This document shows positions 12,893 through 32,158 of a stretch of DNA of 38,251 nt, piece by piece (the stretch's first letter is position 1; the number at the start of each line of letters is the position of its first letter). This DNA is from Minisyncoccota bacterium (GTDB lineage: Bacteria; Patescibacteriota; Minisyncoccia; Moranbacterales; GCA-2747515): contig CALDDM010000025.1 in the NCBI GenBank assembly GCA_937936355.1, positions 1 through 38,251 on the forward strand, read 5' to 3'. Both the position numbers and the translations under genes were made by a program. The notes under the pieces were generated by a model. The model ran no database searches, had not been told where the DNA came from, and saw only the letters and a program-made list of their open reading frames with translations.

Positions 12893-14260
12893 ATGAATAC
12901 AAATATCTTTAAAGCGTACGATATTCGCGGTATCTATGGATCAGATATAGACGAATCCACTGCTTATCATATTGGTCGCGGAATCGTAGAAGTCCTTGGA
13001 GCAAAGCACCTTGCTGTCGGAAGAGACGCGAGGCCACACGGCGAATCCCTCAAGCAAGCACTCATCCGGGGAATCAATTCCAAAGGTTGTGACGTCACTG
13101 ACCTTGGTATGATCACAACTCCGATGCTATATTACTCCTCATGGAACCTTGATGTTGATGGATCTGTTGCAGTTACAGCCTCACACAACCCTGTAGAGTA
13201 CAATGGAGTTAAGCTCTGCAAGAAAAATGTTGGACCCGTAGGCGATGTAACAGGATTAAATGATATCCGTGACTACGTAATTGCTGAGATGCGCGGCGAA
13301 GCAGACACTTCTGTTGCAAATGAATTAGGCAGTATTACCCAGCACGATATCATCACTCCTTACTACAAACATGTTCGTAGTTTTGCAGAATTTGGAGACA
13401 AAAAACGCAAAATCGTAGTAGATTGCGCGAATACCATGGGCGTTCTTGAGCTGCCAATTCTGGAACATTTTGCTGACAATCTTGAGATTACAAAAATCTA
13501 CTGCGACCTTGATCATCCATACACTGCACATGAAGCCAACCCACTCAACGAAAGCACACTCGATGAACTGCGAGAAAAAGTTCTCGAGGTAGGCGCAGAT
13601 CTTGGCATCGCATATGACGGAGACGCTGATCGTGTTGGATTTGTAGATGAAAAAGGCGAAATCATCCCAATGGACCTCGCCTCCGCACTCATGGCAACGG
13701 TTATGCTCGATGACAACAAAGGCGCAACCGTTCTCTATGACTTACGCTCTTCAATGGCAACACGTGAAGCGATCGAAGAGGCTGGCGGTGTAGCACATGA
13801 ATGTCGTGTTGGCCATACGTTCATCAAGGCGCAAATGCAAGAAGAGGATGCACTGTATGCTGGCGAGCTTTCTGGACACTACTACTTCAAAGCAAACAAA
13901 ACTGGTGAACTTTCATCTCTGGCAGCCATCACACTGCTCAACCTCATGATGGAAAAAGGCGAGTCAATTTCTGATCTTGTATCTGACTACCGTCGCTATT
14001 TCCACAGCGGAGAAATCAACTCTGAAGTAGAAGATAAGCAAGGTATGATGGAAAAACTCAAAGACCTCTACAAAGATGGAGATCTTGGTGAGCTTGATGG
14101 AATAAAGATTTCTTTTTGGGACAAGCCTAGCGGAGAACGCTGGTGGTTTAATGTCCGCCCAAGTAATACGGAACCAGTTCTCAGATTCATCTGCGAAGCA
14201 GACAACAAAGACCTCATGGAAGAAAAACGCGACGAAATTCTTGCAATTATCCGAGGATAG
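12893..14260 (+). CDS. phosphomannomutase/phosphoglucomutase
   Basis: FKAYDIRGIYG, VTASHNP phosphoserine loop, GIAYDGDADRVGFVDEKG, RPSNTEPVLRF. Confidence 0.95.
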   Translation: MNTNIFKAYDIRGIYGSDIDESTAYHIGRGIVEVLGAKHLAVGRDARPHGESLKQALIRGINSKGCDVTDLGMITTPMLYYSSWNLDVDGSVAVTASHNPVEYNGVKLCKKNVGPVGDVTGLNDIRDYVIAEMRGEADTSVANELGSITQHDIITPYYKHVRSFAEFGDKKRKIVVDCANTMGVLELPILEHFADNLEITKIYCDLDHPYTAHEANPLNESTLDELREKVLEVGADLGIAYDGDADRVGFVDEKGEIIPMDLASALMATVMLDDNKGATVLYDLRSSMATREAIEEAGGVAHECRVGHTFIKAQMQEEDALYAGELSGHYYFKANKTGELSSLAAITLLNLMMEKGESISDLVSDYRRYFHSGEINSEVEDKQGMMEKLKDLYKDGDLGELDGIKISFWDKPSGERWWFNVRPSNTEPVLRFICEADNKDLMEEKRDEILAIIRG

Positions 14261-20777: not shown

Positions 20778-23225
20778 TTATTCTACGTACCAAGCAATCC
20801 CCTCATAGATCCAGTTAGTATCCGTAAGTCGTATATGATCTCGCTCCTTCAAGCTTTTTGTGAAAAAGTGATGCTTAAACACAGGGCTCCAAAAACGATA
20901 GATTGGACTTGCACTACCATTGGCATCACCCAATACTTTGTACGCTACGCCCTCATAACTCCAGTTTGGATCAACTTCAGTCCTTGCTCGTTCAGTTTCA
21001 GAAATAGTATAGAAATGCCCCTTGAACAATTGACTATAAAATCTATACACTGGCACGCCTTGTGCAGTTTTTTCATCGGTAAGCGTATAAGCAATGCCTT
21101 CATATGCCCAATCAGCATTACTTTCCAAATTCTCCTTCTCAGAATTTGATGTAGTATAAAAATGACCTTTATACACACTGCTGTAGAATCGGTGAACCGT
21201 CGTGCTGCCAGCAGCCTGAGGTATGATGACTGGATCTTCTTCAACAATTTCAATTTCCGGATCTTCAGTAACTGGCGATCGTGATACAACCTCAAATGTG
21301 GCTGCACGAGGTACCCACAAGTAATCAACTGTCTGATCTGGTGATGTGACTGCTATATTCAGAACATATGAACCAAGTGGGAGTTGAAAAGACGCATCAA
21401 ACACTCTTTGTACGCCTTGCTCAATGACCTGATTCTCCACAGTGAAGTCATACTCAGATAAATGAGTACCACTACTTTGATCATGAATCTGGAAATGAAG
21501 TGTTACAGGATCATTTTGACCATCATTGCCAAACGTATTGACTGTATGAATATCATTACCAAAGAAATAAGGTTGCGCTGATGTTATCTCAGTGATGCGA
21601 TGCGTAGGATCTGCATCATAACCGCCACTAAATGGCTCCTCAACAAGAATTGTTCGAGATGTTACATTTGTGAGCCCTTGTGCAGTCACAGTTAGCTGCG
21701 CTTCATACTGGCCTGGGCCTGGATACGTGTGCGACACTTCCTTGCCACTACCAACACTACCATCACCAAAATCCCACGCATACGAAAGAGGTGCGCCACC
21801 AAAAACACTTGATAGTTCAGCATCAAAATCGACAGAAAGAGGTGCGGTACCTTGATCCACTGACAAAGAAAAATCTGCCACTGGCGCCTCTGTATAAACT
21901 AATCGCTTAACGAGTCCAGAATAATGCTCAATATAGTATATAAGGCCATCTGCACCTGTCACGTACTCAACAGCAAAGGGCACCTCAGACGCAAAGTCAC
22001 GCACGTCACGTATGTACTCATTGTCATCAAATCGGATCTGCCGCATAAATCCAAATATAGCATCTCCAAAGATATATGAGCCACGAACACTATCAGGATA
22101 TGTATCACTCAGTGCAAATGCACCACCTGTAATTGCGCCAATAAGATTCTCCCCTCCAATTTCTGGCACCTTCTCATGAACATAATCGTAGATGGGATTT
22201 GTATAATCACCCTCTATCTGACAGCCTGGCATAAAGTTATAGCCGCCCGTCTCAGTCCTTCCTTCGCGACATGGCCACCCATAATTTTTACCTGGACTGT
22301 CTGGGCTGATAATATTAAGTTCTTCATATGCACCCCACCCAACATCCGCTACTAGCAAATTACCTTGTGGCGAAAAATTGAACCGATATGGGTTGCGAAA
22401 TCCATATGCCCATACTTTTGATCGATTATCACTCACATCTCCAGTGAAATATGGATTGTCCTCTAAACCTTCCCCATTTGACTTTATACGTAATACCTTT
22501 CCACTGAGATGATCAAGGTCTTGTGCACGAAAGGCATGCTGCTCTGGAAAAAAGAAGCCCGCACCATCTCCAGTCGAAACATAGAGATTTCCATCTGGAC
22601 CAAAGCGAAGGCCGCCAATTGAATGACTACCAGAATCAGATGCTACACAATCGTCTCCAGGGTAGCTAGCACATGATGGAAACTCTGCAGTACCACCTTG
22701 TGACCCAAGGATTGTGAGCGGATTTGTTGCTAAGCCATCGACTTCTGTGTAGCGCACAACACGGGCATTCTTCTTTGGTATCGAATAGCACTCCACTCTA
22801 CTCCAATTGTCGCCAACATCAGCACATCCCTCTTTTGTGTCATCAAGATAATATCCTCCAGGCTCTGTTGGATCTGGTTCATGCGTATAGGCTATATAAA
22901 TGAAGTGATTTGACGCAAAATCAGGATCAACCACTATACCAATTAATCCTCGATCCTCTGCAGCATTTACCGCATCCCCAAGATCGATAAGAGGATTGCT
23001 GATCGTAGTGCCATCAGCCTGAACAATGAATATCTCACCTGTTTTCTGTGCAACAAGCATCCGACCATCCGGCAGAGGTGCTAGGGCTGTAGGTCGCTCA
23101 AAGCCCTCCGCAAATTCCTGCGCAACAAATCCTTCAGGTAAGTCGCTTGCAGCATTTACAGTTGTGCCAAAATGCATGATTCCTGCAAAACCAAGTACAA
23201 TAATCGCTAAAAATTTCTTTTTCAT
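20778..23225 (-). CDS. secreted PQQ-type glucose/sorbosone dehydrogenase beta-propeller + PKD domain + three DUF5648-like repeats
   Basis: FERPTALAPLPDGRMLVAQKTG, GIVVDPDFASNHFIYIAYT, GGLRFGPDGNLYVSTGDG, WAYGFRNPYRF; PKD (PLSYAWDFGDGS); C-terminal YRFYS...HFYT...W.YEG.AY repeated three times. Confidence 0.9.
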   Translation of the reverse strand: MKKKFLAIIVLGFAGIMHFGTTVNAASDLPEGFVAQEFAEGFERPTALAPLPDGRMLVAQKTGEIFIVQADGTTISNPLIDLGDAVNAAEDRGLIGIVVDPDFASNHFIYIAYTHEPDPTEPGGYYLDDTKEGCADVGDNWSRVECYSIPKKNARVVRYTEVDGLATNPLTILGSQGGTAEFPSCASYPGDDCVASDSGSHSIGGLRFGPDGNLYVSTGDGAGFFFPEQHAFRAQDLDHLSGKVLRIKSNGEGLEDNPYFTGDVSDNRSKVWAYGFRNPYRFNFSPQGNLLVADVGWGAYEELNIISPDSPGKNYGWPCREGRTETGGYNFMPGCQIEGDYTNPIYDYVHEKVPEIGGENLIGAITGGAFALSDTYPDSVRGSYIFGDAIFGFMRQIRFDDNEYIRDVRDFASEVPFAVEYVTGADGLIYYIEHYSGLVKRLVYTEAPVADFSLSVDQGTAPLSVDFDAELSSVFGGAPLSYAWDFGDGSVGSGKEVSHTYPGPGQYEAQLTVTAQGLTNVTSRTILVEEPFSGGYDADPTHRITEITSAQPYFFGNDIHTVNTFGNDGQNDPVTLHFQIHDQSSGTHLSEYDFTVENQVIEQGVQRVFDASFQLPLGSYVLNIAVTSPDQTVDYLWVPRAATFEVVSRSPVTEDPEIEIVEEDPVIIPQAAGSTTVHRFYSSVYKGHFYTTSNSEKENLESNADWAYEGIAYTLTDEKTAQGVPVYRFYSQLFKGHFYTISETERARTEVDPNWSYEGVAYKVLGDANGSASPIYRFWSPVFKHHFFTKSLKERDHIRLTDTNWIYEGIAWYVE

Positions 23226-23385: not shown

Positions 23386-26061
23386 TTATTGCGCAACACT
23401 CGCCTCCCAAAGATTCACAAATTTTTTGTTATAAAGTGCACTTCCAAGCCACGCCCAGTTTGCATCAAGGTAATTGATACCGTCATTCCACTGCTCTTTT
23501 TCGAAATCATAGGCTTGCACGAAATTCTTATTGTAGTAGCGCTGGGCAAACTGCTGATCTTCGCCCCACATTAGTGCACTAAGGTAACCAGACTTTACGG
23601 CAAGAGATCCACTTTGGTTACTTGTAGCACCACTCGCTGCAATAGATGTAGGTATTTCCTCACCATAACGTGTCAGGTAATTAGCCACTCCAGAAAGATA
23701 CGTCTGTGCTGTAGCAGTTTCATACCACGCAACATCGGTACTTACACGCCACAAAGTCCGAAATGCATCAAAACTAAATCGATTTGCATAGCCTGCCTCT
23801 AAAATATGCTTTTGTGCGGGCAAAATTCTACCAGACGAGGTATCTATTGAAACCCAATTCATTGGCAAAGCAGTTTGATTCCATGCAAGAACAGATATAT
23901 CGTTCAAAATATCATATGTATCGTCAGCCAATCCAATCCAATCACGGTCAATGTTTGTATCAAATTCAGCAAAGACACGATACCATGCTGGTGAGAAATG
24001 AGACGGATTCACAAGATACTCGTCTGTACCTCGCAATGCTGATTTTTTATTTAAAGCAATCAAGTAATGTCGCTCTCCTACCGTAATAACATTCTGTTTC
24101 CAAATATCAGCAATAATTTCCTGCGCTGCCGCACCATACTCAGCATCGCCCCAAATATTTGAAGCAAAAATGAGCGCGAGAGCTATATCAAGATCGGCAT
24201 CGCTGGAATTATCAGACGCCTCAACGCCGTCCTTCCAGCGAGAAGAAAACAATTTATCCTCGACACGAAATTGCAAATGATCCCGTGTCCATCCCCATGT
24301 CGCATCAAATACGTCCTTATCAAACATCATCGCAGCCCTAAGCATCGCATACCCTTGCCCCTGTGAAGTTGTAGCAGTCGTAACAGGATCAACTACTTGG
24401 CCATACTGCTCCCCTGACAGAGCTATAAATCGTGATTTATATTGACGCCATGAATCCAAAAGCAATTCACGGGAACTATCATTAATCTTAAAAAGTGCGG
24501 CCCAATCTCCATTTGTTGAAAGCAGATCATCAAAGTCTACAAATGCAGTCGTGCCAGACTTCCACTCCTTATCTGGAAGCGAGTTATCAAAAGCAGCGCG
24601 AACAATCGGGTCTTGTCCTTCACGGATCTGTCGCATCATCTCATGCGTCAATCCTATATAATCAAAATTTCGCCAGTTCAAATTATACTTTTGCTCTCCT
24701 ATCTCTGGGTCACGCGAGATCTTATAATACCAATCTGCATTAGGAAAGGCCTTGGTATTGATATAACGCGGGTCATGCAAATCTACATATGCATAACTAT
24801 CAATCAATATGACTGCATCATTCTCAACATTCTCTTTTATCCACCGTACAGACTCCTTCTGATTAGTCGTCTCATCTGCTGTAAAATGATTCTGCGGCGC
24901 CAAAAAGCCATAATAGCATCCAACCCCGCCTAAGATCACAATGAATACGGCATTATAAAGCGCGCGCGGCATCCAAGCTAAGACATTATGCAAGAAAATT
25001 GCCAAAACAGCACTCACAAATGGAATAAGTGGAACAATATAGAAATTAAATGTCACACCACCTCGTATCAAAAAAGCAAAGTATGTAATGATACAAATCA
25101 GAAATGCCCACAAATTTTTACTTGGCGTAAAGTGAATACTTCGAACATTAAAGAGCCAGCTAAAGAAAGACATAATCAAAATAGCAATCGGTATCAAAAG
25201 CGCAACACCAATCGCGTAGATAAAAACTTCATCTTTAAGCATCCAGTCACCAAGAGTAGTACGGAAGTCACTTGCCGGGTCCCAAAAAACACCACCATCA
25301 CGACCTGACTGAAACTCCAAAGCCCCAAGGAAGCTAACATGCTCACCGGTTGGACTTTTGAAAAACTCATTCTGCAGCAAAGCAAAAAGAATATATGTTG
25401 ACACTACCATGCCAGAAAACATAAACCACATTGTGGTACGAAAATGCCGTCCAACAGGAGACTCCTTTGCAAGCAAGAGAAAAAGAAAAGCCGGTCCAAA
25501 CATAACGGCAGTCACCTTAGTAAGAACAGCAAAAGCATAAAAAACACCAGCTGAAATAAAATGTCGCAACTTCTGCTTTTTATAAGGCACAAAAAACATC
25601 GCGAAAGCAAGAAGAACCCAAAAAATCATAATATTATCCAGCAACACTCGTCGCTGAAAATATATCGCAAGCGGTGAGAGCGCAAAGAGCGCAACCGCTG
25701 CTGACGCAGGTAAAATACGTCGGGTCATGTGATAAACGATGTAAAACAAAACACATGTACTTGCAGCATGTACAACGAGCATCAATACACGTCCCGTATC
25801 CAGAGAAGACCCAAAGGCGAAGAATCCTTCCTCAAAAAGCATCGTCCACCCCGCAATTACGATCCAACCAAGTGGTGGATGGTCATACCAATACGTATAT
25901 GGCGCAAGCTCTCCTTGCGTGACCAGTGACCACGCCTGTGAAGTATATGTGCCTTCATCACTCTCAAAATATGGATATTGAAGCATATTGCGCGAGTGAA
26001 AACCAACTGAAACAGCAAGTGTCAGCACAAAAACGATCCAAATTATAAGCTTCTTTGTCAT
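23386..26061 (-). CDS. fusion: GT39/PMT-type polytopic glycosyltransferase + C-terminal GH8-like domain
   Basis: N-terminal YFESDEGTYTSQAWSL...YDHPPLGWIVIAGW with many TM helices; C-terminal WRQYKSRFI...TTSQGQGYAMLRAAM..DKDVFDATWGWT..HL...SSDADLDIALALIFAS..WG and FDAFRTLWRVSTD (GH8 blocks). ATG at 26061 has an upstream AAGGAGG; the ORF track start (26100) is probably too long. Confidence 0.85.
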   Translation of the reverse strand: MTKKLIIWIVFVLTLAVSVGFHSRNMLQYPYFESDEGTYTSQAWSLVTQGELAPYTYWYDHPPLGWIVIAGWTMLFEEGFFAFGSSLDTGRVLMLVVHAASTCVLFYIVYHMTRRILPASAAVALFALSPLAIYFQRRVLLDNIMIFWVLLAFAMFFVPYKKQKLRHFISAGVFYAFAVLTKVTAVMFGPAFLFLLLAKESPVGRHFRTTMWFMFSGMVVSTYILFALLQNEFFKSPTGEHVSFLGALEFQSGRDGGVFWDPASDFRTTLGDWMLKDEVFIYAIGVALLIPIAILIMSFFSWLFNVRSIHFTPSKNLWAFLICIITYFAFLIRGGVTFNFYIVPLIPFVSAVLAIFLHNVLAWMPRALYNAVFIVILGGVGCYYGFLAPQNHFTADETTNQKESVRWIKENVENDAVILIDSYAYVDLHDPRYINTKAFPNADWYYKISRDPEIGEQKYNLNWRNFDYIGLTHEMMRQIREGQDPIVRAAFDNSLPDKEWKSGTTAFVDFDDLLSTNGDWAALFKINDSSRELLLDSWRQYKSRFIALSGEQYGQVVDPVTTATTSQGQGYAMLRAAMMFDKDVFDATWGWTRDHLQFRVEDKLFSSRWKDGVEASDNSSDADLDIALALIFASNIWGDAEYGAAAQEIIADIWKQNVITVGERHYLIALNKKSALRGTDEYLVNPSHFSPAWYRVFAEFDTNIDRDWIGLADDTYDILNDISVLAWNQTALPMNWVSIDTSSGRILPAQKHILEAGYANRFSFDAFRTLWRVSTDVAWYETATAQTYLSGVANYLTRYGEEIPTSIAASGATSNQSGSLAVKSGYLSALMWGEDQQFAQRYYNKNFVQAYDFEKEQWNDGINYLDANWAWLGSALYNKKFVNLWEASVAQ

Positions 26062-26129
26062 GATATTATTTTCCTCCTTAAATGCAGTTCGTCCAAACAC
26101 TTGCCACGAGACAATACCTTCTTATAAGA

Positions 26130-28289
26130 TTACGAATTATTATTGGTCGTAACAGAATAATCAATATTCAGATGTTCAGTTTTTTCCCAATTCAGCTTTC
26201 CAGACAAATTTCGGATAATTGCACGAAAAGCACTAATACCTAAAAGCATTTGAAAAGGGATGATCATAATAATAATCTTGAGAAAATACAGAATATTAAA
26301 TTTTGTTTTATACGTTTTTGCAAACTCGTAGATCGCCAAACAACTAATCACGATAATCGCTATCAAAACATAGAGCGGGATAAATGCCAATAAACTGTAA
26401 ACAATTGGGATCTTGATAAAGAATGCAGCTACAATTGACAACGGCAAAAAGAATACGAGAGCAGCCTGCATGAACGGCCACGCCAAAACGTAGACGATCA
26501 AAACTTTTTGAGAAAATTTCTCTAGCTGCAACCACTCACCTTTTTTCAGAATCTGCATAAAACCTTGATTCCATCGTGTACGCTGTTTTACAAAACTTGC
26601 AATCGTTGGTGGTGTTTGCTCTTGGGTAGACAATTCCTCATTATAGAAAATATCAAATTTAGCACCCTTTGAGGCCATACGAATTCCAATATCAGCATCC
26701 TCTGTCAAACAATCAGCATCCCATCCACCAATCTCTCGCACCATATCTCGCTTCATGAACACCGTATTCCCACCAAGTGGTACTACGCCACGACTAGCAA
26801 AGAAATGAAGCGCAGATTTAAACCAGAAGTAGTACTCTAAGACATTAAACATTGAGTACCAGTTTGAATGGTAATTCATGAGCTGTACACCAGACTGCAC
26901 CACATCAACACCTTTACGAATAAAAATAGTATTTATAGCATTATACAAGCCAGGCTGCACACGATCTTCTGCATCAAAAATTGTAATGATATCCTTTGTT
27001 GAGCGCGCAAGACCAATGTTAAGACCACGAGACTTACTCGGCCCTGGATCACCACCAAAATCTAGAAGCTGTACGTTTGACTTCCCAATCTCAGCTATAA
27101 CCTCCTTTGCTGCTTGGATAGTTTCTGGATCATCATCTGCATACACAAGGACAAAAGTCTCCTTCAAGTGCTCTGGATAATCCACCTCACTAACCCGTTT
27201 GATAGTTGTCTTAAGAACATCCACTTCATGTCGCGCTGGAATCATCGCAGTAAAGGAGTACGTTGGTGTCTCATGCGGCAGATACCGCTCTTGCGCAAAA
27301 TGCTTGAGCGGGTTATTCCATGTGTAAAGATGTAAGATGACAGCAAAAAAACCTTGGATAGAGAGAAACATCGACACTGTAAAAACAATTTTAGCAAGTG
27401 TTCCCTCGACAAGTCCTGATATAAAATATGCAGCATAAATAAGAGCTGCAGCAAGTAAAATTGCATAAAAAAGATGCAGCTTCTGTCGTAGGTACTTTGC
27501 ATAAAATGGCTTAATGTAGTAATCACGCCAAAGGTCTACCACCTGCGCTAGGTAATTTATACCTTGTTGCATTGTCGCCTTAGAGTCATTCCCCTCTCTT
27601 TTACGAAAACCGTACACTATCTCACTTACAGTTGCATTCTTCTTTTGTACAAGAATTTCTATAAGTATTTTAAATCCCCGTAATTTTGTAGGATCAATTG
27701 TTGTCGCAATAGATCGACGAATAGCAAAAAATCCTGCACCTGGGTCACTTGATTTTCTTGTTGCCGGTAAAAATGTCCATGCAAAAAACCGGCAAAGATG
27801 TGACACCGCTTTTCTGTAAGTACCACCAAGACCTTCAGCATGACCACCCTTACGATAACGTGTAGCAACCACTATATCACTCTGCGTACGCTCCACTTGA
27901 CGCATAAGCCGTGGCACTGCCTCTGGTGGGTGTTGCAAATCACTATCCATACATACCACATACTCACCCTGTGCAGCCGCAAAACCCTCGGCAAATGCTG
28001 TCGCAAGGCCAGTATTGTTGTTGCGATGAATTAGTGTAATATTCGGTGCATGCTTCATGTATGCTCGAATCACTTCTGGAGTATTGTCCTTACTGTCATC
28101 TATAAACAAAATCTCATACGGATAGTCAACTTTTTCTAGGTATACCCCAAGCTCACGTAGAAGAGGCACAACATTCTCTGATTCATTGAATGTTGGGAAA
28201 ATAATAGAAAACAATACCTCACTATTGTAAGAATCACTGCGCTCTATTAGGTTGCCCTTCTTTGTTATATTTAACGTTTTTTCCATCAC
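26130..28289 (-). CDS. tandem GT2 fusion: DPM1-like polyprenyl-phosphate glycosyltransferase + cellulose-synthase-like processive GT2
   Basis: N-half: SIIFPTFNESENVVPLLREL...EILFIDDSKDNTPEVI...VCMDSDLQHPPE. C-half: AMIPARHE...YADDDPET..DAED...LTEDADIGIR...QRTRWNQGF (D, DxD, TED, QxxRW) with C-terminal TM helices. Confidence 0.92.
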   Translation of the reverse strand: MMEKTLNITKKGNLIERSDSYNSEVLFSIIFPTFNESENVVPLLRELGVYLEKVDYPYEILFIDDSKDNTPEVIRAYMKHAPNITLIHRNNNTGLATAFAEGFAAAQGEYVVCMDSDLQHPPEAVPRLMRQVERTQSDIVVATRYRKGGHAEGLGGTYRKAVSHLCRFFAWTFLPATRKSSDPGAGFFAIRRSIATTIDPTKLRGFKILIEILVQKKNATVSEIVYGFRKREGNDSKATMQQGINYLAQVVDLWRDYYIKPFYAKYLRQKLHLFYAILLAAALIYAAYFISGLVEGTLAKIVFTVSMFLSIQGFFAVILHLYTWNNPLKHFAQERYLPHETPTYSFTAMIPARHEVDVLKTTIKRVSEVDYPEHLKETFVLVYADDDPETIQAAKEVIAEIGKSNVQLLDFGGDPGPSKSRGLNIGLARSTKDIITIFDAEDRVQPGLYNAINTIFIRKGVDVVQSGVQLMNYHSNWYSMFNVLEYYFWFKSALHFFASRGVVPLGGNTVFMKRDMVREIGGWDADCLTEDADIGIRMASKGAKFDIFYNEELSTQEQTPPTIASFVKQRTRWNQGFMQILKKGEWLQLEKFSQKVLIVYVLAWPFMQAALVFFLPLSIVAAFFIKIPIVYSLLAFIPLYVLIAIIVISCLAIYEFAKTYKTKFNILYFLKIIIMIIPFQMLLGISAFRAIIRNLSGKLNWEKTEHLNIDYSVTTNNNS

Positions 28290-28337
28290 TCTATAATTAT
28301 ATACTCAATAATTTTTGTATTTCAGCTTTTCTATAGT

Positions 28338-29699
28338 TTATTTTGACTGTGATTTTTTATTTTTGTCATCCATAACCATTTGAGCAATCATCTCACCTTC
28401 CTTTATGGCATAATTAACACCACGATCATCAGGGTAGATTTGTGAAAAGTTCGCAAGATACAATCCTTCAACCGGTGTTCTATACTCTGGCATCTTGTCT
28501 TCATAACCAATATCAACAATATGCTGAGCATTCTTAAACGTAAAGAGCTCCTCACTAACTATTTGATCCTCATCAAAATGCGCAAACATTTTCCTTAGGC
28601 CATCCTTCCATTCTTTCATGATATCTTGCTTCTCCATCGAAAAATATCTGTGGTCATGTGTAACATAATCACCAATGTAGTAGATATAACGCCCACCTGT
28701 GCTCTCTATGCCAGAAAGTGCAGTCTTTGAAAGCAGAACCAAAAACGGAACCTCATCATCATTTATGTTATGCCAATAGTAATCACTAATCTCCTGCTTT
28801 GTACTGAAGATCATAACTGCTGCACCGATATAATCGATTGACGTAAGCTTCGTTCGGTACTCAGACGTCATCGATGGATGCTCCTGCGTTAATTGTGCCA
28901 AAACATGTGATGGCGTTGTAGCAACCACGTCATCAAATGTTTTTGTTGAAGATTCTTGATCTGTGACAATTGTCATGCGACCATCGGCCTCATCATGCGC
29001 AGGAACTATCTTCTGTATATCAACTCCTAAATGAATTGTACCGCCCGCTGATTCAATTGCCCGTGCCATAGCTTCAGTCTGCACGCGAAAACCACCCTTA
29101 AAGTAACCCAACTTTTCCTGCGTTGTTTCTTTTGAATTAGCGCGAACATGGATACGTGACCAAAGCCAAGACATTGTCACCTTATCGTAATACTTATCAA
29201 ATTTCCCTTTTAAAAGTGGTGTCCAAATAATCTCAGTTGCCCTCTTACCATTATAGCGCGTTAACCAGTCCAGTGCAGTCACTTTTGTGAGAGGCTCCCA
29301 ATTTGTTAGCTTTTGCAAATAAAGACCGACAAGCCCTGTACGAACTCGATCTACTATACTCAACGGAGTAAATTTCAATAGATCTACTGGAGTCATAAAT
29401 GGATACAACTTACCATCATAGTAGGTTGAAATAGAGCTATCGTGAAATGTCAGATCATCGTAAACATCCAACTCTTTGGCCAAATCAATTGCTGCCTTAT
29501 CAGTTGTATAGAGAAAGTGATAAGCCTTTTCCAATGGAATACCATCCAAATCAAATCCTGCAACAAGACCACCAAGTAGATCGCTACGTTCGTAAAGAGA
29601 AACGCTATAACCTTTAGTAGCGAGTCTATAAGCAACCGTTAGTCCTGTGTACCCGGCTCCTATAACTGCAACATTCTTCTTTATACCTTTACTTTTCAT
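28338..29699 (-). CDS. FAD-dependent amine-oxidase / UDP-galactopyranose-mutase-like oxidoreductase
   Basis: VAVIGAGYTGLTVAYRLATKGYSVSLYERSDLLGG Rossmann dinucleotide motif; C-terminal GLYLANFSQIYPDDRGVNYAIKEG. Confidence 0.85.
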   Translation of the reverse strand: MKSKGIKKNVAVIGAGYTGLTVAYRLATKGYSVSLYERSDLLGGLVAGFDLDGIPLEKAYHFLYTTDKAAIDLAKELDVYDDLTFHDSSISTYYDGKLYPFMTPVDLLKFTPLSIVDRVRTGLVGLYLQKLTNWEPLTKVTALDWLTRYNGKRATEIIWTPLLKGKFDKYYDKVTMSWLWSRIHVRANSKETTQEKLGYFKGGFRVQTEAMARAIESAGGTIHLGVDIQKIVPAHDEADGRMTIVTDQESSTKTFDDVVATTPSHVLAQLTQEHPSMTSEYRTKLTSIDYIGAAVMIFSTKQEISDYYWHNINDDEVPFLVLLSKTALSGIESTGGRYIYYIGDYVTHDHRYFSMEKQDIMKEWKDGLRKMFAHFDEDQIVSEELFTFKNAQHIVDIGYEDKMPEYRTPVEGLYLANFSQIYPDDRGVNYAIKEGEMIAQMVMDDKNKKSQSK

Positions 29700-29727
29700 T
29701 TTTTTAGATTATACAAGTTGTAGTTTT

Positions 29728-30156
29728 TTATGACTGGCGAAATGTAATTGCTCTATTCAAAGTAAACTGCACAATAAATATAATTGGCAACGATAGAACT
29801 TTAATAATATTTTCATCATGTCCACCATATCGCGCAAAATAATAGATCATTCCAACACTGATACATATACCTAAGACGTTTACACCAAAATATGAGAGAA
29901 ACCTACGAACAAGGTGCGTTTTAATCTTAAAGTTATAAACTGCGTTCAGTGTAAATGCATAGATAACCGCACACGTTGACGAGATAATCGTTGCCAACTC
30001 TGCAGGGAAATTAAAAGCATTATTAAGTGAGAAAAAAATTGCCAAATCGACTCCAGCAGCTGTAACACCAATGCAAAAATAGAGAAAAATCTTTGCAAGC
30101 TCAGGGTGCCTCTGCGCCAAAGCCGTCATTGTCTGTGATGGAGTCTGCTGTATCAT
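29728..30156 (-). CDS. GtrA-family membrane protein (putative polyprenyl-phosphate-sugar flippase)
   Basis: KIFLYFCIGVTAAGVDLAIFFSLNNAFNFPAELATIISSTCAVIYAFTLNAVYNFK...RRFLSYFGVNVLG; four TM helices. Confidence 0.88.
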   Translation of the reverse strand: MIQQTPSQTMTALAQRHPELAKIFLYFCIGVTAAGVDLAIFFSLNNAFNFPAELATIISSTCAVIYAFTLNAVYNFKIKTHLVRRFLSYFGVNVLGICISVGMIYYFARYGGHDENIIKVLSLPIIFIVQFTLNRAITFRQS

Positions 30157-30261: not shown

Positions 30262-30290
30262 ATAATACCACTGTAGAAATCATATGGCAA
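30262..30290 (-). promoter_or_regulatory. promoter P1 of the gtrA-glycan operon
   Basis: Minus strand TTGCCA (30285-30290), 17 bp, TATTAT (30262-30267). Confidence 0.55.
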
Positions 30291-30316
30291 AGTTATCAAA
30301 TCCTTACCTTGAGAAC

Positions 30317-30345
30317 ATATTATCATATTATTGATATAATGTCAA
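30317..30345 (-). promoter_or_regulatory. promoter P2 of the gtrA-glycan operon
   Basis: Minus strand TTGACA (30340-30345), 17 bp, TAATAT (30317-30322). Confidence 0.5.
30332..30340 (+). promoter_or_regulatory. plus-strand extended -10 promoter, divergent to P1/P2
   Basis: TGATATAAT, a perfect TGnTATAAT extended -10; no good -35. Confidence 0.35.
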
Positions 30346-30757: not shown

Positions 30758-32158
30758 TTACTCTACAGTAAGGTCTACAACACATTCTCCAGTATTACCA
30801 TCAGCATCTGTGACAGTAACAACGTACGAACGTGAATCAGTGATTCCTGAGATATAGATTTCATTTGACGGATCTACACCCTCAAAGAATACTCCAGTTG
30901 AACCATATGGACGCAAACTTGAGCTAACAGCGTCGTCTGATCCAGTCCAGCTTAACGTTGTCGCACCATCCACACCAATTGTTGACGGTGAAGCACTCAC
31001 AGTACATGTTGGACCACCAGCTGACACTTCCTCTGTAGATTCTTCAGTCTCTGAATCGATCATACAACCCTCCTCACCTGAAGCTGTATCTCCCCATCCA
31101 TTACCATCAACATCTGCGATAACACGACCAGGATATACCTCGCTACAGTATGCGTGTGATGAAGTCTCCTCTGTCTCTTCTGTAATAGGATCCATCATGC
31201 ATCCTGCTTCGTCAGACTCAGTGTCTCCCCATCCATCTCCATTTGCATCAACCATGACGCGTCCTGGGTATGTAACAGAACAGTAGTTGTGTGTTACCTC
31301 GTCTGTCTCTTCCTCAGTTGTTGTAGCAATTTTACATCCAGTCTCTCCCGACTCAGTGTCTCCCCATCCATTTCCATCGATATCAGCGATTTCACGTCCT
31401 GGGTACACATCACTACAATAACCATGATCAGTTGTCACCTCTTCTACCTCTTCAGGATCCATCATGCATCCTGCTTCGTCAGACTCAGTGTCTCCCCATC
31501 CATCTCCATTTGCATCAACCATGACACGTCCTGGGTATGTAACAGAACAGTAGTTGTGTGTTACCTCGTCTGTCTCCTCTTCTTCCTCTTCTTCAGACTC
31601 TGAACCATCGATCAGACAACCTTTCTCGCCGTCCCATCCCCATCCATCGCCGTCCCAGTCATAACACTCTGACTCTACCTCTTCACCAGACGGATCAATC
31701 ATGCAACCAGTCTCGCCATGCTGCGTGTCTCCCCATCCATTTCCATCGATATCAGCGATTTCACGTCCTGGGTATACCTCACTACAGTAACCATGCTCAA
31801 CAGATTCCTCTGTAAGTGTGGCTGCAGTCTCACATGTTGCACTTTGACCATCATCTGTCATGACAGTAAGTGTGTATGTTGTATCTGACTCGATACCATT
31901 TGTCCACCAGTATCCCTTTGGATCCACAGCTCCAACTCCCTCAAGGTTTGCCGATGTTACGTTCTCACTACTCCACCAGATCAGTGTTGTAGCACCATTT
32001 TCTACGACTCCAGGATTGGCGTCGATTGTGCAGTGTACAGAATCCCCGCCGTAGCCAGACCCCTCAACTGCCAATACACTTGTCGCGATACTTGCAAGAG
32101 CCACAAGGACTGCTGCAAATACTGCAAACATATGCAATGAAACAGACTTGCTCATCAT
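30758..32158 (-). CDS. secreted protein with two Ig-like domains flanking six Cys-bounded D-x-(D/N)-G-(N/D)-G-W-G-(D/W) repeats
   Basis: Signal peptide; units such as YCSEVYPGREIADIDGNGWGDTxxGExGCMID plus one CYDWDGDGWGWDGEKGC unit, separated by Glu/Thr-rich linkers; Ig-like domains at both ends. Confidence 0.85.
   Translation of the reverse strand: MMSKSVSLHMFAVFAAVLVALASIATSVLAVEGSGYGGDSVHCTIDANPGVVENGATTLIWWSSENVTSANLEGVGAVDPKGYWWTNGIESDTTYTLTVMTDDGQSATCETAATLTEESVEHGYCSEVYPGREIADIDGNGWGDTQHGETGCMIDPSGEEVESECYDWDGDGWGWDGEKGCLIDGSESEEEEEEETDEVTHNYCSVTYPGRVMVDANGDGWGDTESDEAGCMMDPEEVEEVTTDHGYCSDVYPGREIADIDGNGWGDTESGETGCKIATTTEEETDEVTHNYCSVTYPGRVMVDANGDGWGDTESDEAGCMMDPITEETEETSSHAYCSEVYPGRVIADVDGNGWGDTASGEEGCMIDSETEESTEEVSAGGPTCTVSASPSTIGVDGATTLSWTGSDDAVSSSLRPYGSTGVFFEGVDPSNEIYISGITDSRSYVVTVTDADGNTGECVVDLTVE
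31188..31309 (-). repeat. copy 1 of a 122-bp direct repeat within the repeat-protein gene
   Basis: Same as 31454-31575 apart from one base (ATGACGCGTCC vs ATGACACGTCC), by direct reading. Confidence 0.85.
31454..31575 (-). repeat. copy 2 of the 122-bp direct repeat
   Basis: See 31188-31309; offset 266 bp. Confidence 0.85.

Follow-up and report, generated by a model that had tools for sequence, protein, structure and literature searches.

An unusual Patescibacteria operon predicted to couple surface-glycan synthesis to extracytoplasmic glycosylation, with a GH8 domain that has lost its general acid

The stretch of DNA analyzed here (the window) comprises 38,251 nucleotides of a Minisyncoccota bacterium (GenBank assembly GCA_937936355.1, contig CALDDM010000025.1), a tiny, uncultured member of the Patescibacteria whose genome amounts to 1.21 Mb in 37 contigs and is 89.7% complete. 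Its minus strand carries, at 23386-30156, four closely spaced genes in the order GtrA, flavin adenine dinucleotide (FAD)-dependent oxidoreductase, a DPM1-like domain of glycosyltransferase family 2 (GT2) fused to a processive CesA-like GT2 domain, and a domain of glycosyltransferase family 39 (GT39) fused to one of glycoside hydrolase family 8 (GH8). The reading that we favor, with a probability of roughly 0.55, is that this operon would make a surface glycan by a synthase-dependent route and link that synthesis to a multi-component system for extracytoplasmic glycosylation; the GH8 domain would be a remnant that probably no longer cuts. The locus is real and conserved, and it suggests a mechanism; its parts are known but unusually combined, and one of them, the cellulase domain, has apparently been inactivated repeatedly. 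The coordinates, strand and short spacers of the four open reading frames agree with an initial annotation of the window, and the domain identities given there are upheld by two of the checks that it had proposed, profile hidden Markov model annotation of the four proteins and AlphaFold models, here of the two fusion proteins and compared by Foldseek. The features are as follows.

29728..30156, minus strand: GtrA-family small membrane protein, 142 amino acids, proposed polyprenyl-phosphate-sugar flippase (Pfam GtrA_DPMS_TM, PF04138, 9.9e-19)
28338..29699, minus strand: FAD-dependent oxidoreductase of the amine-oxidase superfamily, 453 amino acids (NF005560/PRK07233)
26130..28289, minus strand: DPM1-like GT2 fused to a processive CesA/PgaC-like membrane GT2, 719 amino acids (Pfam, PDB, AlphaFold/Foldseek, alignment)
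23386..26061, minus strand: GT39 (GT-C, PMT/ArnT-like) with a C-terminal GH8 (alpha/alpha)6 domain (Pfam, alignments, AlphaFold/Foldseek, start site)
24361..24363, minus strand: codon of the lost general acid, Gln580 in 904-residue numbering (position computed from the open reading frame 23386-26100)
30262..30345, minus strand: possible promoter region (TTGACA-17-TAATAT at 30345-30317, second match at 30290-30262)

The GH8 part matches Pfam Glyco_hydro_8 over residues 549-857 (1e-33; 117 bits against a cut-off of 24), and in the AlphaFold model of the GT39-GH8 protein (mean predicted local distance difference test score, pLDDT, 89.6) its best Foldseek match is the (alpha/alpha)6 fold of CelA (1cem, TMt 0.81); the models of both fusion proteins were built from the window protein and the related loci. 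The family is the one that the initial annotation had named, but the domain falls short of a catalytic GH8 in a way not noticed there, as the general acid Glu (E95 in CelA, E55 in BcsZ) is replaced by Gln580. The second GT39-GH8 protein of the same genome, on contig C26, has Ser at this position, and with the general acid missing from both domains hydrolysis is unlikely. The acid is absent from 16 of 39 GT39-fused GH8 domains and from none of 22 stand-alone relatives (Fisher p 2e-4, a value that ignores relatedness and is only indicative), its place being taken in the 16 by Q, S, V, R, A, L or D. A tree built only from GT39 domains requires at least seven changes in the state of the acid, and the losses occur in full-length, intact frames from several phyla. 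Locus L029 has Ser in its first tandem GT39-GH8 copy and Glu in the second, the second tandem copies of L030 and L031 keep Glu as well, and in L048 the fused GH8 has Arg and a GH8 protein behind the fused copy has Glu. This repeated loss suggests that the GH8 part may now do something other than cutting. It would also provide a naturally replicated test of how a cellulase becomes a non-cutting module, and some genomes (L029, L048) carry an apparently live and an apparently dead copy next to each other. It is highly improbable that the domain still hydrolyzes the glycan with the help of another acid, trimming it as BcsZ does, even though the base Asp778 and D634/D636/D638 are kept in the window and Glu-bearing fused copies exist (e.g., the second tandem copies of L029, L030 and L031): the Glu stands in all 22 stand-alone relatives, and the same change to Gln was made in the laboratory in the acid-catalyst mutants CelA E95Q and BcsZ E55Q, whose structures were obtained with bound cellopentaose (1kwf, 3qxq; PMC8805304). 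A different pattern is seen in the fused GH8 domains of L062, L069 and L043, where the acid Glu is kept and the base Asp is changed to Asn; these possibly belong to another GH8 subfamily or have become inactive in a different way.

The CesA-like domain matches Glyco_tranf_2_3 over residues 346-575 (4e-42; domain about 270-700) and contains the motifs FDAED, TEDAD and QRTRW. DAED, TED and QRxRW are invariant in 17 aligned CesA-like sequences, and together with the membrane helices they make up the features of a processive GT2 enzyme. A PDB search matches this domain to BcsA (2.8e-11), and in the AlphaFold model of the DPM1-CesA protein (mean pLDDT 82.9) the two halves are matched by Foldseek to the Pyrococcus enzyme PfDPMS (5mlz) and to BcsA (4p00/5ej1) and hyaluronan synthase, respectively. 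Models of BcsB, BcsC_C and PilZ gave no match in the 89.7%-complete genome and all three detected positives in control genomes, which bears out the earlier remark that none of these partners was to be seen.

The DPM1-like domain in front of the synthase matches Glycos_transf_2 over residues 28-160 (4.5e-40; domain about 25-255), its catalytic motifs DDS and DSDLQHPPE are intact, and its closest solved relative in the PDB search is PfDPMS 5mlz (5.9e-35). A single full-length GtrA match was found in the genome, plus one of half length. The FAD oxidoreductase, likewise encoded by a single-copy gene, matches Pfam Amino_oxidase (9e-30) and NCBIfam NF005560 (449 bits against a cut-off of 252); a PDB search with it gave weak matches, mostly to the nucleotide-binding region, that indicate no function. 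Its identity had been recognized previously, and it had been left without a role. Gene association now places it with the DPM1/GtrA module, since DPM1-like genes directly adjoin the FAD gene away from this locus in many Patescibacteria (L153, L155, L157, L159-L161, L176, L179, L180; in L157 GtrA is also present beside them) and GtrA and the FAD enzyme are one protein in L030. FAD, GtrA and DPM1 therefore seem to form a module for lipid-linked sugars, which in some loci has become joined to a core of CesA and GT39-GH8. Among the synthase proteins, those of the window, L030, L031 and several other loci have an intact DPM1 domain, those of L033 and L040 a degenerate one, and those of L029, L032, L036 and L066 none. 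The proposal of a lipid-linked-sugar pathway alongside the processive synthase holds in that the sequence features of GtrA, of a DPM1-type GT2 and of a GT-C enzyme are all found.

The GT39 part of the last protein matches PMT_2 over residues 73-233 (7.5e-11); D48, E49, H74, P76 and R150-R151 are invariant in 37 proteins, the conserved Asp-Glu loop is present, and the best Foldseek matches of the GT-C part are oligosaccharyltransferase (OST) and Pmt4. The GT-C fold would put the GH8 domain on the extracytoplasmic side. Given the Pfam names PMT/PMT_2 and structural matches that include Pmt4 and OST, the GT39 enzyme could instead be a PMT-like O-glycosyltransferase acting on surface proteins, with the CesA-like synthase belonging to a separate pathway that happens to share the operon, and paralogous GT39 genes do lie near a surface protein in L027 and L028. 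We nevertheless judge this to be quite unlikely, as a CesA-like gene accompanies GT39 in several phyla and GT39 is fused to a beta-glucanase-fold domain, both pointing to a glycan acceptor. In the two loci just named (L027:2096-7890, with an acid-less GH8, and L028:7554-12220, without GH8), the GT39 gene is followed by a protein of 541 or 546 amino acids and then by the surface protein, which is SdrD-like by eye; the 541/546-residue proteins are 63% identical and have no Pfam match at E <= 1e-4.

The neighborhood survey comprised 33 related loci with a GT39-GH8 fusion, from Patescibacteria, Saccharimonadia, Chloroflexi and Actinobacteria. A single-sequence scan of genome contigs with GT39-GH8 had found nothing, so that an alignment-based search was needed, and a search of plasmids gave partial matches to the GH8 part and nothing else. 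The CesA-like gene accompanies GT39-GH8 in 26 of the 33 loci, mostly immediately upstream on the same strand at a distance of a few bases to about 60 bp. GtrA and the FAD gene occur in 7 loci each, on which count the whole four-gene block was rejected as a conserved unit. The conserved core is CesA plus GT39(-GH8), which is narrower than the block; the expectation of the initial annotation that the block is conserved in relatives thus holds for this core, and GtrA, FAD and DPM1 are not fixed partners. All four components (GtrA, FAD, CesA and GT39-GH8) stand together in L029, L030, L031, L049 and the window, and the DPM1-CesA fusion is found with the other three genes in the window, L030 and L031 only. 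In many Actinobacteria the same parts occur unfused: GT39 and GH8 are encoded by neighboring but distinct genes, and a CesA-like gene often precedes GT39. The distribution of the GT39-GH8 fusion is patchy. Within the family, 3 of 17 members carry it, and in a phylum-wide set of 381 genomes about 8 have it in full-length or near-full-length form. A literature search returned no prior description of a GT39-GH8 or DPM1-CesA fusion, in a search that covered subscription journals thinly, so that the absence of such a description is not proven.

These elements can be assembled into a scheme of synthesis coupled to glycosylation. The CesA-like domain would polymerize and extrude a beta-glycan, most likely a beta-1,4-glucan-like one, the DPM1-like domain would load a sugar, most likely mannose from GDP-mannose, onto polyprenyl phosphate, and GtrA, as is known of its family, would flip the lipid-linked sugar; the FAD enzyme, by its gene associations, may modify the lipid-linked sugar or its carrier, and the GT39 domain would move the sugar onto the emerging glycan outside the cell. 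The choice of mannose follows from the DPM1 domain being nearest to a GDP-mannose-using DPMS, from the genes behind the C26 copy and from a phosphomannomutase-like gene in the window (12893-14260). Behind the C26 copy (L003:5289-14850), and in the same orientation, lie genes for phosphoglucose isomerase, a ManC-type GDP-mannose pyrophosphorylase, a type I phosphomannose isomerase and two proteins with GH5 cellulase domains. The last two, together with the fused GH8 and a GH6-family protein (PF01341, 2.8e-34; L026:13299-14126) directly downstream of CesA-GT39-GH8 in a same-genus relative, suggest a beta-1,4-glucan-like polymer. The fused GH8 would have descended from a BcsZ-kind beta-glucanase that belonged with the synthase; lacking its acid, the window domain probably no longer cuts, and it most likely persists as a folded module on the extracytoplasmic side, touching the glycan or helping to position it. 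It can be likened to the carbohydrate-binding modules (CBMs) that reportedly bind the acceptor in the GT-C enzymes EmbC, AftD and Citrobacter ORF12 (PMC11127046, PMC8035078). A more tentative extension, possible but doubtful at present, is that GT39-GH8 is a synthesis-coupled decorating enzyme, in which the former cellulase holds the exiting beta-glucan and presents it to the GT-C site for mannosylation from the lipid carrier, so that one compact operon would supply Patescibacteria with a branched cellulose decorated from lipid-linked sugar.

Several observations weigh against this coupled scheme, beginning with the GH8 domain itself. Besides the acid, the window domain has lost other conserved positions (W620S, Y701H, Y878L), the first of which is Trp in 97% of Glu-bearing copies, and acid-less GH8 domains lie 5-12 identity points below their GT39 partners, whereas Glu-bearing ones keep pace; in view of these extra losses and the faster divergence, the domain may not bind unmodified beta-1,4-glucan. 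That acid-less domains retain the exact cellulose cleft is an idea weakened by the loss of W620 and the other positions. A third GT39 protein of the genome (C35) is without GH8, and the syntenic gene in a same-genus relative has an acid-less GH8, which makes the module dispensable in that lineage. All this would suit a GH8 domain that became dispensable after fusion and is simply decaying on its way out. Such decay is nevertheless unlikely, because the fold is modeled with high confidence, 36 of 42 other conserved positions are kept in the window in an intact frame, and the losses recur in intact frames elsewhere. Moreover, in Demequina (relatives in the window's own clade are too distant for this calculation), the acid-less GH8 has a dN/dS of 0.29-0.39 against 0.45-0.48 for the rest of the same protein, which points to purifying selection that is stronger on the GH8 domain. 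We take this as a sign that catalysis has been relaxed and a folded, constrained GH8 domain retained in at least one clade, a view that for the window is extrapolated.

Among the same contrary points are the synthase scores and the gene neighborhoods. The CesA-like domain scores higher with PgaC/IcaA (131 bits) than with CelA (52 bits; TIGR03030, cut-off 699) and lies below every curated cut-off, so that linkage and sugar can be proposed only tentatively; of the cellulose-like synthase proposed at the outset, the processive fold and motifs stand, while assignment to CelA does not. GtrA and FAD are absent from the immediate vicinity of CesA-GT39-GH8 in the majority of Patescibacteria loci. With scores under all synthase cut-offs and a DPM1-like fusion partner, the CesA-like domain might be a membrane GT2 that acts with the DPM1 domain to build or lengthen a lipid-linked saccharide, the product being transferred to the envelope by GT39 with no polymer extruded. 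This appears very unlikely given that DAED/TED/QRxRW are invariant or nearly so, that the fold with its membrane helices resembles BcsA and hyaluronan synthase, and that many relatives keep CesA-GT39-GH8 with the DPM1 domain absent or degenerate.

The proposed coupling of a synthase to lipid-linked glycosylation shares parts with several known systems. In common with the three-component GtrA/GtrB/GT-C systems (Gtr of Shigella/Salmonella; GtcA-CsbB-YfhO; GtsABC), the locus has a flippase, a DPM1/GtrB-type synthase and a GT-C transferase, here in one operon, but the charging enzyme is fused to a processive synthase, the GT-C enzyme to GH8, and an FAD oxidoreductase is added; the acceptor would be a synthase-made glycan. 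Bcs operons (BcsA with the GH8 endoglucanase BcsZ) are alike in their processive GT2 (DxD, TED, Q(Q/R)xRW-type) and GH8-fold protein, whereas here BcsB, BcsC and PilZ were not found, the GH8 is fused to GT39 and lacks the acid, and the synthase is far under the CelA cut-off; on these features the locus is not a member of the Bcs family. The arabinosyltransferases EmbC and AftD and Citrobacter ORF12 are likewise GT-C enzymes with an additional extracytoplasmic domain, one capable of binding the acceptor polysaccharide (PMC11127046); theirs is an immunoglobulin-like CBM and the one here a former inverting GH8 glycosidase. The clostridial cellulose operon ccsZABHI (PMC7710045), which is Gram-positive, also combines a synthase with a beta-glucanase of its own and lacks BcsC, but it has GH5 and O-acetylation genes in place of GH8 and the lipid-linked-sugar/GT-C module. 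Finally, the Pyrococcus DPMS (5mlz) is a stand-alone polyprenyl-phosphate mannose synthase, whereas in the present locus the catalytic domain is followed within one polypeptide by a CesA-like synthase, and GtrA is encoded on its own.

In the literature surveyed, synthase-made glycans are trimmed, acetylated or modified with phosphoethanolamine, and the polymers that GtrA/GtrB/GT-C systems are described to decorate are O-antigen, teichoic acids and cell-wall polysaccharides. A CesA-GT39-GH8 unit that is conserved in Patescibacteria, Chloroflexi and Actinobacteria would bring these two fields together. Surface glycans of Patescibacteria are likely to be relevant to the attachment of these small cells to their hosts, and the locus provides specific candidate genes.

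The spacers within the operon measure 28 bp between GtrA and the FAD gene, 48-51 bp between the FAD and DPM1-CesA genes, and 68 bp from there to the ATG of GT39-GH8 at 26061 (29 bp to an upstream GTG). This ATG, preceded by an AGGAGG-like site, is the probable start and gives 891 amino acids. A single promoter region had been proposed for the four genes, and a TTGACA-17-TAATAT match is present; however, promoter-like matches number 20 against 22.6 in shuffles, and neither promoter nor terminator scans gave a signal above shuffles, so that the proposal is not borne out. Directly upstream of the operon, a likely secreted protein (30758-32158, minus strand) is encoded with a 132-bp three-copy tandem repeat, whose translated units follow the pattern HxYCSxxYPGRxxxDxxGDGWGDT. 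The downstream neighbor (20778-23225, minus strand) combines a glucose/sorbosone dehydrogenase-like domain with PKD and a C-terminal DUF5648, and it is likely secreted as well.

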